Below, piece after piece: positions 14,351 to 63,649 of a stretch of DNA of 64,000 bases. A program made the translations under genes and the position numbers. Each line of letters begins with the position of its first letter. Position 1 is the first letter of the stretch. The DNA comes from Conus ventricosus (lineage: Eukaryota > Mollusca > Gastropoda > Neogastropoda > Conidae), in contig CM031611.1 in the NCBI GenBank assembly GCA_018398815.1, positions 48,525,801 through 48,589,800 of the forward strand, read 5' to 3'. The notes beneath the pieces are model-generated. The model saw only the letters and a program-made list of their open reading frames with translations, ran no database searches and was not told the origin of the DNA.

Positions 14351-15021
14351 CTTAGTTGAATTTCAAATCACTTGCCAATCTCAATTCACGAAATGGTTTG
14401 TCCTACTATTCCATTGGATCCATGTTGATTTTTTTAGAAAGAACGGACATAAATTCCAAAAATCGTTTCGGATTTGATTTGCAATTCACTTCAAAGGCTG
14501 CATTTGTTTTTAACAGTTTGGGCCTCAAATTATTCACAATGAAAAATGGCAGCCAAACAAGTGGCAGCGTCACCAGTGGACTGATTCAGTGTAACATTCA
14601 GGGCTCCCAATGACGCACATATGTGCGTCCATGACGCACTATGAGTGAAAGGACGCACTAACAAAACGTGTAGCGAGTCCTGCGGGACGCACTACAAAAT
14701 CAGGCAAACCCAAAACGTGCCGCGGTCAGTGATCAAAGCTGAGCACACCACAAGCTTCGCGCGCGATTGCCTGCCGGCAAATTCAGGACAGCGTGTGCCC
14801 GCGAAAGTACAGTAAGCCGAGAACTGCGTAAACACTGATAGGCTCGCCTTGTGGCCCACGTCACTGAACGGTTACTCAGTCGACCGGCTGACTTATTCAG
14901 ACTGTGGCGCCGCCGCCACAAATTTAACCCAATTTGATGACTCACAAGTTGTAACAATCGCGTGCACAAGCCTAGGCGAACGAAGCAGAAAGGAAGTTCA
15001 CGGCTATCGCATCTCGCAAAT

Positions 15022-15533
15022 ATGTCGTTGCTTCAGTGGTTGGGCGCTCCTAAAAAACGCAAAGAAACATCTTCTGAAGATGCTACAGAGAGTGAATCGT
15101 CGATTCCTAAAGAAATATATGCAGCAACACCACCTAACAAGAAATGCCGTGCGTATAATTCAGCCTGGAAGAAAGAGTTCAGCTGGCTGGAGTACGAAGA
15201 TGGCAAGATGAAATGCAACATGTGCTCTCGTAAGCTTAGTGCCCTGAAGTCGAGTAGCAAGTCCAAGACAAAAACGCCTTCGTCTCTGGATCTATCAACT
15301 TCCAAAAATCTGCGTTGTACAGACATGAGAAGAGTGATGATCACGTCATTGCTCAAGCCGCTGAGAAAAGAAGAGAGGAGATGGAAAGTGCGAAAGGTGC
15401 TGCAGTGAAACAGAGTTCACACGTTTTACGTCAGCAGATCGGTGCAGCTCTGATTCTGGCACAAGATGATCTTCCAGATACGAAATTTCAAGCCTCCTTC
15501 GAGCTCAGACAAGGAACCCTTTTAGATTTTGAT
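15022..15533 (+). pseudogene. TTF/BED-like zinc-finger N-terminal module of element A
   Basis: Starts MSLLQWLGAPKKRKETSSED and continues to AWKKEFSWLEYEDGKMKCNM, CSRK. The W-x-x-E-F-x-W-L / C-x2-C pattern matches the TTF-type zinc finger that opens many animal hAT-like and ZNF862/KIAA1586-like proteins. A frame change near 15310 separates it from YRHEKSDDHVIAQAAEKRRE, which supplies the expected R-H-x(4-5)-H part. It ends at 15533 (LLDFD) with no catalytic region. Probable start is the first Met shown. Confidence 0.7.
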
Positions 15534-15810
15534 TGAAAAAAATAGATTTGCTTTTTTTTTTAAAAGACCTTGACATAGTTTGTTGTGTAACACTGATAGT
15601 ATGACATCAGTACCACACATGATAGATTCATTATCCTACATCTCCACCAGATCTACCACAATTTTAGGGGGTGCATGAGTTTCACTATTTCTACTGTTAT
15701 TATTGTTATAATAAATTTCATAGTGCACATATTTGGTCACAAGAACAAGTGACTGCACATACATGAACTTTAACTTGCCTTCCTAATGACATTGATGCAC
15801 AATCAGTAAT

Positions 15811-15843
15811 CAGAGAGAGAGAGAGAGAGAGACAGAGAGAGAT
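15811..15843. repeat. (GA)n microsatellite
   Basis: A short GA run with one GACA interruption, inside element A. Confidence 0.8.
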
Positions 15844-16885
15844 TCATTTACTCTGAAATGTTCAGATTATCAAGCCAATAATTAAAAAAGCAAGAAATAC
15901 TACATTTTCTGTATTGGTTAATTTTGTTCATGGGGACTCTCTATACCCCCTCTGGGACCCTCTATAGCATCAGTGAAGGAGTCCCTGGGACCCCCTGTCT
16001 GCCAGTACAAATGGGAGCCCTGAACATTATATCAATTCTACTGTCTTTGTGAAATTTGTTTACATGAATAAGCAACATTTCACTTCAATGACGTACAACT
16101 TTTTAAATTTCTGTTCTGACAAGTCTGTCGTGCTGAAAAGTAACCAGATTATGGTTTCCATTAGAACTTACATGACACTGTGTTCAACTCGTTTCTCCAA
16201 CACCAACATAACTTTAATATTTGAGCGCTGACTGGACATAATTTTCTTTGTAAAACACGAAAAGAGATTACTGTGCAGCCTATGTCCTTCACACTAAAAA
16301 ATCAAAACACAGATGATGGAATTTTTTTTAACCGCTTCATCTGTATGAAGCAATTTTGTCTTTCAAAATGACAATTCTGTTTTTATTTACTTTATATGAA
16401 TGGTTCAACTATAGATGTAATAGAGAAAACTTATTTCTCTTTCTATTCATATATGATACTTACCTAGTCATAAAGAGTAAAACAAAAAAAATAAACCATA
16501 AAAGAGCAAAACAAAAAAGAACATTTTTTTTAACTTGAAAAATGTGGCAAACTCTCAAAACCCTCAATTCTCACAGTGAAAATCTGACCGACTGCTTTTG
16601 GGCCGAGTGGAGAGTGGAGGACTTCACACAGTGCTTAGTCAAATATGCAATTAGGATTTCAGGAATTATTTTCAAGATAAAAAATTCCTTATATTTAGGG
16701 GAGGGTGGTGGTGGTGGAATGTTTTGAAAGGTGAGACGATAAAGGGAAGGACAAGGATGTAAGATGCTGAAACTTGAAACTAAAACAAAAGTAATGCATA
16801 CACACAATTTAACAAAGAAAAAACTCATATGGCTTAGTAACTGTAACTAACCAAACCTGATTTTTAGTGACCTAACCCGAGTTCA

Positions 16886-16917
16886 CAGACACACACACAC
16901 ACACACACACACACACA
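16886..16917. repeat. (CA)n microsatellite beside a Dvl donor site
   Basis: About 15 CA units lie within 10 bases of the donor of the PDZ exon (16925-17053), on the intron side. Length change here could affect splicing of the exon; that is inference. Confidence 0.85.
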
Positions 16918-16924
16918 TACTGAC

Positions 16925-60845: not shown

Positions 60846-61469
60846 CAAAAAATTAACCCGGCGCGAGCGAGAGTGAGAGAGACTGATCAACCAAGAGTAG
60901 GGGAGGGAAAGAGGGTAGGGCAAGTGGAAATTAAGCAAGACAAGGTGTAATCTACTTGTCTCCATGACAATTACTCAGGAATTTCTAACCCTGCTGGACA
61001 GATCTATTTGCCCAGTCGCCTAATAAAAGAACAGATAAAAATGTGCAACTGGGTTTCAAAACGTAACAGCCCATTTGGCAACTCAAAAATTTGCCCTAAT
61101 CATTTCTCTGATACATTTCTAAAATTCAAGGTTTTGATATTTTACATGTCTGTCAAGTTAGTTGATGTCATTAACAGCATTTGAAGATCCAATCAGCATA
61201 ATCCTGCGGTTTTCACAAACACAAAACACAGAATTAATGGACTGAAGTTGATAAAAAAGAACTGTTAAAATATTGGAATTTCAACCTACTGAAAAAGTCA
61301 GTTATCAAAACAGTTTGTCCAGTTCCTGTCCTTGACATGTTTTTTGAGTCAGTGTGATTTGTCTAGTCAGAACTATTCTTGATCTATCTTTTCAGTCAGT
61401 TCAATTCTGATATTTTAACAGTTCACAGAATATTCATTAGCAGATCTTTATGAGTACAATTGCCTCAAG
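60846..61469. other. Dvl intron or upstream region, no gene seen
   Basis: No coding similarity found; searched for the DIX start on the minus strand without success. Confidence 0.45.
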
Positions 61470-61859
61470 CAGGGTTCATAGCCTAAGAGCATCCCAAAAT
61501 TCCCAAACTTTTCCCAAACTTTCAAAACCACTTTCTGGATTTTTCAAAGACCTTTATTTTCTTTAAGCAGCCCTAAAACTGAAGTTAGGTAGATAAAAGG
61601 GACAAGTAAATAAGCACAAACACAACAGACAGACAGATTACCTTTTAATAGAACAGTTCCTTGTTATCACACCAATCTTCTAGCCTTATTATTGTCTGTT
61701 TGTGATGACCCACAGAAAATGTAAACTATTATATTCCTTTTTTTTCAGCCACAATGCACTGCCGTTGTTTGAAAAATGAATCAATGGATTCTGTCCTATA
61801 TGTCACAAGACTTACAACAACTGTCAATTCCAAAGGCAGCCAATGTGTTGTAGTGGAGA

Positions 61860-62164
61860 TTACATGGCTTGAAACAGCTGTTTCATGCCATCACATGATT
61901 TCATACTGTAATGGGATGTTATGCACTTCATTGCCCACAACACCTCGGCTTTCAACACTTCTGTGCCAGACACGTACGATGCCAAACTACCACACTGTTT
62001 TTCTTTCTGCGTTGCAGCTGATGAGACGGGAACCTCTGAAGATGTCACTGGTGCAACAGAGGAGGAGCTGGTTGTGGAAGACTTCTTGCTGTGGATGCCC
62101 ATGAAGTCACCAATGGGTGCAACCACTTTGTCAATGGAAGCCACATTCTTCTTGTGCTTTGCAC
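61860..62164 (-). CDS. Element G ORF exon 2: linker and start of transposase helices
   Basis: After acceptor TTTCAG it reads AKHKKNVASIDKVVAPIGDF, a Ser-rich linker, then GTEVLKAEVLWAMKCITSHY and SMKSCDGMKQLFQAM, where a TAA stop follows at 61860. In related full-length proteins SHYSxKSC...LFxxMFPDS leads to the catalytic domain, which is missing here. The total product is about 157 residues. Confidence 0.7.
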
Positions 62165-63152
62165 CTGAAATACAAATTTTCTTTTGTGTTTATAAAAGTT
62201 TTAATCAAGACACCAAAAATCGTTCTTGTTTATCATCATATCAATTTTATTATTACTAGTAGGCAAAATCTTTATAATCATCACAATCATTATCACTATT
62301 ATCATTATCATCCTAATTATTGTCACAATTATATGTCTTTAACATTGTTTAAAGAGAGTGTATGATGTTACTGCTATATCTGTATCAGAAATTTTATAAA
62401 AAATTGTAAATATTGATTGATCATTATAAAATTCTGTCAATATACTGTTAAATATTAATTAAAATGAATGTTCTTGTTATTGTGAAATAAATACCAGTAT
62501 AACTTACTGTTTTATATCAATTGCTATTAATGGTATTAACTTTTAAAAAAATCACTATTACTTTACAATTATGTACTCTCTATATGGAAAGAAATACTAT
62601 CTTCATTTCACATTAGTATTAATTATAACATGATTATAAGTTCACATGAATATTTCCTATTAGTATTGTTCCCAACCTTTTAAAAATATAATTAAAAATA
62701 GTATGAATGAAAATAGTGGGTAGCAGTGGTGGTAGTAAACAGCGTAAGTACTAGTAGTAGTATAATAATATCAGAGCAGAAGTTCTAGGAGAAGCAGTAT
62801 TAGAACAGAAAGAAGTAGTACTAGTAGTAGTTGCAGTAGAGCATGAGGTAATCACCACTTTGCAAATTCTGGCAATATTTGTAACAGTGTTTCCTTCAAA
62901 GCGCAGGTCACATGGTCACATTCTTTTTTCTTTTCTTTTAAAAGGGCAAAAACGTCAACCTGAACAACGTAAAAAAAATGAAAAAATCAAGTAGGTTGAG
63001 GTATGGCTGATGGGAGAGCGTTTGGATAGCTTGGCTAACTACTGAAACAAAAGGTTCACCAAAAATCATTTTCCGTCTTCGTCTCATTTTTCTTCCTGTG
63101 ACCAAGAGAATGTGACCGGTGATCCCACGCGATGAACACTGTATTGACTTAC

Positions 63153-63318
63153 CGCCGTTATGGCTGATGAGGGCTCCTTCACCCATCGATCCAATATCGA
63201 TGTTTTTCTGCACGCTGCACAGTACGCAGACCCACTTGTTGCCAGCATTTTTCCGCAGCCATCGTTTGTAAGTCGAATTTTCGAGCCACAGCTCGTTGAA
63301 AACGCACTGGTCCGGCAT
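63153..63318 (-). CDS. Element G ORF exon 1: zinc-finger
   Basis: Met 63318 begins MPDQCVFNELWLENSTYKRW and continues LRKNAGNKWVCVLCSVQKNI to SMGEGALISHNGG. The pattern W-x-x-W-L...C-x2-C...SMG-x-ALxSH is the N-terminal finger of a family of invertebrate hAT-like proteins. The donor GTAAGT after GGCG splits a Gly codon that is completed by exon 2, restoring SHNGGAKHKK (the last His ligand). Confidence 0.72.
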
Positions 63319-63649
63319 TTTGTTTTCTCTGAGAGACCCGGATATTCCAAGGGAGGTAACTCGCGTTGCGCTTGAAATCGAGAGTTCGTCTGCTACTCAA
63401 TTCGCTGCGGTTCATCCGATCGCATTTATTATATTTTATAGTTGTTTCCTCTTGTATGTTAAAATTTCATGGTCCCCGATTTTTTTCGGAGTGGATATTT
63501 TATATTGGTGACATAACTCTAAATTCACAAACTTTCACAAACCATATTCATGTTTTCTTATTTTTCAAAGACTTTCCAGGGCCTGGAAAATAACATCTTT
63601 TTTCCCCAAACTTTCCCAAACTTTCCCAAACGCTACGAACCCTGTCAAG

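Follow-up and report, generated by a model that had tools for sequence, protein, structure and literature searches.

We analyzed a window of 64,000 nucleotides from Conus ventricosus (GCA_018398815.1, contig CM031611.1, positions 48,525,801 to 48,589,800 of the forward strand). It carries eight short insertions, A to H, that look like non-autonomous hAT5/hAT6 transposons. We consider it very probable that these elements are internally deleted hAT5/hAT6-type copies that carry, at their left end, a landing array for a transposase supplied in trans. A first-pass annotation made from the sequence alone had proposed the limits of all eight insertions, target-site duplications (TSDs) of 5-6 bp and a nested arrangement, and all of this was borne out on the letters of the window. 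Element A (14599..16022, 1424 bp) lies on the plus strand and the others lie on the minus strand. D (27257..28539, 1283 bp), E (46737..48285, 1549 bp), F (58690..59838, 1149 bp) and G (61470..63644, 2175 bp) are single stretches. The other three are split: H by B (left segment 20253..20363, right segment including the 5' tip 30697..31367), B by C (20364..20988 and, with the 5' tip, 30338..30690) and C by a long interspersed nuclear element (LINE; segments 20989..22393 and, with the 5' tip, 30281..30331). The LINE inside C is bordered by a duplicated GAGCTTGAAAGA, and the nesting H > B > C > LINE > D holds. CAG...CTG tips were confirmed at both ends of seven elements, as was the degenerate left tip of F (CCGACCTG). 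The TSDs are AACATT (A), TAAACC (B), CAGTAA (C), ATTTTG (D), CAGGCG (E), TCAAG (G) and CTATT (H); F is flanked by CAGCAA, where a seventh base matches too. E seems to be inserted into a DIRS-type retroelement: the open reading frames (ORFs) on its two sides (45630-46892 and 48210-49161) have a DIRS-type look by eye, with tyrosine-recombinase-like and reverse-transcriptase-like words.

According to the first-pass annotation, every element has a repeated motif of its own between the 5' terminus and the finger ORF, always at the same position. We oriented the elements with the finger on the plus strand, expressed site positions as the distance of the CG from the 5' tip and allowed one mismatch in the six motif letters. 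Within the first 250 nt, none of 300 dinucleotide shuffles reached the observed motif count in A, B, C, E, F, G or H, and 11 of 300 did so in D. The family motifs of A (GACGCA), B (TACGA), C (TACGC), D (GCCGCA), E (TACGC), F (TACGG) and H (TCCGCC) are variants of one [A/C]CG core. The notion of eight unrelated motifs was therefore rejected, and only G differs. The positional claim proved more exact than proposed for these seven elements and did not hold for G. The common layout has CGs at about 18(-), 28(+), 38(-), 58(-) and 88(-), where the sign denotes the strand.

The array of A (14612..14692, plus strand) has its CGs at 16-, 28+, 37-, 56- and 90-. On the minus strand, the TACGA-type array of B (30599..30675) has them at 18-, 27+, 39-, 59- and 87-. 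Those of C lie at 19- and 28+ in the right segment and, with the LINE removed, at 59- and 87- in the left segment. The GCCGCA-type array of D (28447..28514) has 28+, 37-, 57- and 90- with an extra site at 78, that of E (48195..48269) has 19-, 28+, 40-, 60- and 88- with an extra 68-, and that of F (59749..59822) has 19+, 29+, 39-, 59- and 87- with an extra 75+. The TCCGCC-type sites of H, in its right segment, lie at 18-, 27+, 36-, 58- and 80- with an extra one at 55. The strand order is -,+,-,-,- throughout except for the first sites of F and D. In all seven elements the repeats are concentrated at the 5' end. G probably belongs to a different group because it has its own repeat close to both tips (61502-61522 and 63608-63627) and another spacing. 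In each of the eight elements the observed/expected ratio of CpG dinucleotides is higher in the first 100 bp than in the remainder (barely so in G), and it is low in the last 100 bp of A to F and H with the exception of F; the C composite used for this comparison included the LINE end and the doubled target.

The shared geometry was compared with random shifts. Among the seven elements, 64 sites coincide (within 2 bp, same strand), and the maximum in 20000 random shifts was 50. A, D, E and H alone, which have different tips, give 18 coincidences, a value reached in 6 and 5 of 20000 shifts in two runs. We also scanned for a CAG followed by sites at four of the five positions that share one four-letter core, using 15 Markov sequences of 63 kb as a null. 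The scan of the window found six places, all of them element 5' tips (A, B, D, E, F and H), and nothing in the null; C escapes because it is split by the LINE. When only three of five sites were required, the loci L001 to L041 (181 kb, A heads set aside) gave three candidates where about 0.6 were expected from the null. One, L001 (reverse complement, position 2245 onward), has CG sites at 19, 28, 39, 58 and 86 and, after them, a finger ORF of the type seen in the window, and this ORF makes it a convincing ninth family of the same plan, found via its site layout. The second, L032, has sites at 18, 28 and 36 and, at +1417, a 3' tip with one mismatch; it is flanked by TAGCG, a near-exact 5-bp duplication that at the right end is displaced from the tip by one base. 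The third, L016, was judged a chance match.

Each element had also been said to code for one BED/TTF-like finger without a visible transposase core. Finger patterns were judged by eye on the translations, and the claim holds for five of the eight elements: A, C, E, F and G have a complete Cys2His2 pattern, interrupted by a frameshift in A and by a putative intron in G, whereas B has lost its first Cys to a Ser, H stops inside the finger and D has none. By pattern, A, C, E, F and G thus keep the DNA-binding N-terminus and have lost the core; B keeps it minus one Cys, and D and H do not. The ORF region of A (15022..15533, plus strand) encodes 168 amino acids in the family majority, and the copy in the window is frameshifted within the finger. 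The other ORFs lie on the minus strand. In C (21633..22289) the finger (CKIC...KKHCETASH) is followed by the linker 'TRAEAMLCGLVAELNLSLS', and the ORF of E (47630..48190) is frameshifted close to its start in the window copy. The F copy of the window alone lacks a stretch of about 57 bp with the start codon of the ORF (58978..59670), a stretch kept in 20 of 20 relatives. G has a finger exon (62938-63396) and a probable second exon (61863-62189), joined by eye. The ORF of H (30901..31245), also assigned by eye, contains an incomplete finger (FCVPCGKIDRLNQCCDEG, no His pair). The N-terminal ORF of D (27888..28487) runs to FQESWLKDRPWLK and ends ahead of the first Cys-x2-Cys, with no such pair after it, and the same is true of the majority of 20 relatives plus the window copy. 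A second frame of D that overlaps this ORF, 'DSLNVLMTIKCEGPPINDHDFTAAAAEWKQQKDRR' (27806..27946), is probably a hAT C-terminal remnant across a deletion joint; we take it to resemble hAT C-termini. A Pfam search found no family above the curated cut-off for the ORFs of seven elements (all except B).

Copies of A, D, E and F were sought in the 3.52-Gb genome. Only the best candidates were scored, so that the identities favour close copies and the candidate numbers are not copy numbers. Among the best 40 of 1196 A candidates, 15 span positions 1-1424 and 14 more span about 1-1212, at 94-100% identity, and in a sample of 30 the TSDs were exact at 5-7 bp in 21 of the 25 copies with both ends located. 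The best 40 of 986 D candidates are all 97-100% identical. For E, 29 of the best 40 of 3137 candidates, including the window copy, cover nearly the whole element; the other 28 near-full copies are 86-90% identical and the remaining 11 align chiefly over the 5' two thirds, with 90-94% identity. The best 40 of 891 F candidates comprise several structural forms. Mean pairwise identity is 0.995 in D, 0.987 in F (n=21 each), 0.985 in A (n=30) and 0.954 in E (n=21). All four families are amplified; D is a young one and was amplified without any finger.

The origin of these copies is clearest for F. A genome search with the hAT dimerisation domain PF05699 (best 150 of 2093 candidates) returned matches that include two F-family copies. 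In a third F-family place with this kind of match, L109 (C2:41029400-41031500), an unbroken 240-aa ORF (L109:1357-2076), a candidate dominant-negative protein, fuses the finger of F with the hAT dimerisation region (PF05699, E 2.1e-11), and the core is missing. L107 has the same form in broken condition, and in L108 the finger is cut short and more sequence is kept ahead of the dimerisation domain. Longer F copies encode both finger and PF05699, and F therefore derives from a hAT transposase that lost internal sequence. The dimerisation region was found in the F family only; none was seen for A or E, and D was assessed by eye. Families other than F presumably arose by deletion as well. A protein search with the L109 ORF (best 150 of 7506 candidates) gave three places that are unbroken over all 240 residues and, by our own count among the matches listed, at least 52 with a stop-free 170-aa frame. 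Twelve of the 170-aa copies together with L109 have a mean pairwise DNA identity of 0.995, the mark of a recent burst of this F subfamily. Relatives of an F-family ORF comprise 15 proteins, and the three among them that are named with an organism all come from Nucella lapillus. Three A variants with longer interiors, L039 to L041, contained no recognisable autonomous copy. A 696-aa hAT ORF with DUF4371 and PF05699 was found at L110, where the 5' tip was not located and the layout scan gave no match at three of five sites.

How might such remnants be mobilised? Both tips are retained in each element, and at the left end seven of them also have what we propose to be a landing array, about 90 bp long. 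A full-length transposase acting in trans would dock its N-terminal BED/TTF fingers on this array and then cut at the CAG tips, and the finger exon would survive because it adjoins the array. As the five CG-core sites are about 10, 10, 20 and 30 bp apart, they would share roughly the same helix face; strand alternates among the first three. This geometry would be set by the transposase oligomer. Motif flanks and fingers would drift together in each family, and because of this co-evolution the families would stay separate. Mobilisation by an unseen transposase was one of the possibilities raised in the first-pass annotation, and it is the best supported of these, although itself an inference. 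A more general formulation, which we offer tentatively and hold somewhat less likely than its opposite, is that a positional code governs the left ends of hAT5/hAT6 elements: five finger sites centred on CpG at 18, 28, 38, 58 and 88 bp (separated by 1, 1, 2 and 3 helical turns), fixed by a transposase ring, with flanks and fingers varying by family.

Several observations weigh against a landing array of conserved geometry. Individual sites deviate from the layout: the third site of C is degenerate, the first site of D has a CG at 18 in a diverged motif and the first site of F is reversed. G is off the layout altogether, with another motif, other positions and copies at both ends. The window scan is not independent because the layout was learned from the same elements, and at three of five sites it adds a match at 20996 that is no 5' tip (null 0.2 per Markov sequence). 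Run on 50 kb taken at random from the genome (45% masked), the scan gave only two simple-repeat matches, and no 3' tip of L001 was found within its locus. The array of A is not measurably better conserved than its surroundings (0.145 versus 0.099 events per site), and those of E and F are better conserved only by trend: the first 62 bp carry 0.210 and 0.016 events per site, respectively, and none of the comparisons in A, E and F reached p 0.05 (lowest 0.07, F versus its own ORF). No autonomous parent was recognised among the best 40 candidates each of A, D, E and F or the best 150 of the L109-ORF search, and the transposase and its right-end sites are consequently unseen. Finally, the tip CAGACCTG is common to B, C, E and F, whose fingers also look similar by eye. 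Their common layout may therefore partly reflect descent, and the test restricted to A, D, E and H is weaker. This raises the alternative that the shared layout goes back to a single ancestral left end by inheritance alone and that its geometry serves no function. We consider this unlikely, as the positions are about the same in A, D and H although their tips and motifs are different, and without constraint indels would be expected to shift the sites as the intervening sequence diverges.

The first-pass annotation had favoured a different role, in which lone fingers act as repressors or titrating factors. The KP repressor of the P element is an internal deletion that leaves a DNA-binding N-terminus, and finger-only proteins selected to occupy the array and block the transposase would be its counterpart. 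We counted nonsynonymous and synonymous events (N/S) against the majority letters of each family, with expectations derived from the observed mutation spectrum and CpG context. N/S was 41/10 in A (2.82 expected; 28 of 30 copies, L023 and L031 left out; 42/11 with 3.03 expected for all 30), 84/33 in E (2.69 expected; n=21) and 32/11 in F (2.62 expected; n=21). Pooled over the three families, N/S against expectation was 1.07 (95% confidence interval 0.78-1.49), and changes common to at least two copies agree (11/3 in A, 33/13 in E, 8/3 in F). The finger ORFs of A, E and F evolve neutrally. Intact ORFs are found in 6 of 28 A copies, 2 of 21 E copies and 6 of 21 F copies, counts that cover only the retrieved part in E and F and may be depressed by assembly indels. 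The comparison of fingers with adjoining bases, named beforehand as the one that could overturn the repressor proposal, found the fingers not clearly better conserved, with upstream and ORF rates of 0.099 and 0.101 events per site in A, 0.332 and 0.271 in E and 0.087 and 0.093 in F.

Some data could be read in favour of repression. The coding part of E is slightly more alike than its upstream part (0.955 versus 0.947), and N/S restricted to the finger core of E is 34/16, with 2.94 expected (p 0.18). The young F subfamily keeps its stop-free 170-aa frame in the many places counted above, the three unbroken 240-aa ORFs with finger and dimerisation region would make plausible dominant negatives, and the twelve 170-aa copies plus L109 give N 4 and S 9. 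The ranking behind this last sample relied on protein words and thereby gave preference to intact copies with few amino-acid changes, so that neither its N/S nor its stop counts can be used. The missing start-codon stretch of F was not counted against repression because the loss is confined to the window copy and occurs in 0 of 20 others. Given that the whole-ORF N/S is neutral in A, E and F and that D was amplified without a finger, the repressor reading is not supported; we rejected it as the main explanation on the neutral N/S and regard it as quite improbable. Less probable still is that the arrays are promoters or silencers of the finger gene instead of transposase sites: they do lie upstream of the first exon and their sites contain a CpG, but their distance is fixed to the transposon tip and not to the start codon (ORF starts at 426 in A, 274 in E and 338 in F), and repeats of this kind at known hAT ends serve to bind the transposase.

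Landing sites for a transposase acting in trans would have precedents in other hAT systems. The established groups hAT5 and hAT6 have TSDs of 5 and 6 bp, respectively (PMC12730594). The elements described here share such TSDs and also have CAG...CTG tips, an N-terminal finger and, in longer F copies, the dimerisation domain; they differ in that they have no catalytic core, and the portion of that source available to us describes no site layout for the groups. The BED domains of Hermes bind left-end subterminal repeats (STRs) asymmetrically, STR1/STR2 form a quasi-palindrome in bp 11-27, and asymmetry between the two ends is reported to be an important precondition of activity (PMC10368747). 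The elements of the window also have subterminal repeats close to the tip, an opposed first pair and left/right asymmetry, with finger binding predicted; the Hermes motif AAG(T/C), the antisense orientation of all of STR2-7 and the 8-bp TSD differ. Maize Ac transposase binds AAACGG repeats (PMC3260210), which also contain ACG, and its internal-deletion copies Ds-del and Ds2 are moved in trans, although Ac repeats lie near both ends and the TSD is 8 bp. For Herves, a short subterminal motif suffices for transposase binding, and its authors state that the bound regions differ in sequence between hAT elements, which gives specificity (PMC3143072); here the difference is that the Herves motif occurs at both ends. 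Because the transposases of Hermes, Herves and Ac bind short repeats of their own ends, the motifs in the window are ordinary in kind, and binding of the repeats by the finger, as the first-pass annotation had suggested, would fit this published rule as a job of the parent transposase. In titles and abstracts on hAT site spacing and orientation we did not find a fixed spacing across families with different motifs described. As for KP, the finger of A, E and F differs from it in showing no sign of selection.

The repressor story is thus replaced by one of deletion copies, neutral finger remnants and a docking geometry that would outlive its motif. If the positional code were true, the genome would amount to a natural library of the BED/TTF recognition code, layout alone could reveal new families, and methylation of the CpG in every site could act as an on/off switch. 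Should the layout hold genome-wide, geometry would find hAT families missed by sequence search, and many finger/motif pairs could be compared with regard to DNA choice by BED/TTF fingers and the separation of sibling transposons. The CpG within the sites makes methylation control of these transposons directly testable.

Beyond the hAT-like insertions, the window contains a LINE-like element in two copies (22400-30280, the one inside C, and about 4000-9000), whose paired blocks account for 12 of the 20 direct-repeat families shown and are 92-100% alike. A near-perfect palindrome at 58281-58477 consists of two 97-nt arms, 99% complementary, with a 3-nt gap, and is built from a repeat that is also present at 22402-22487.

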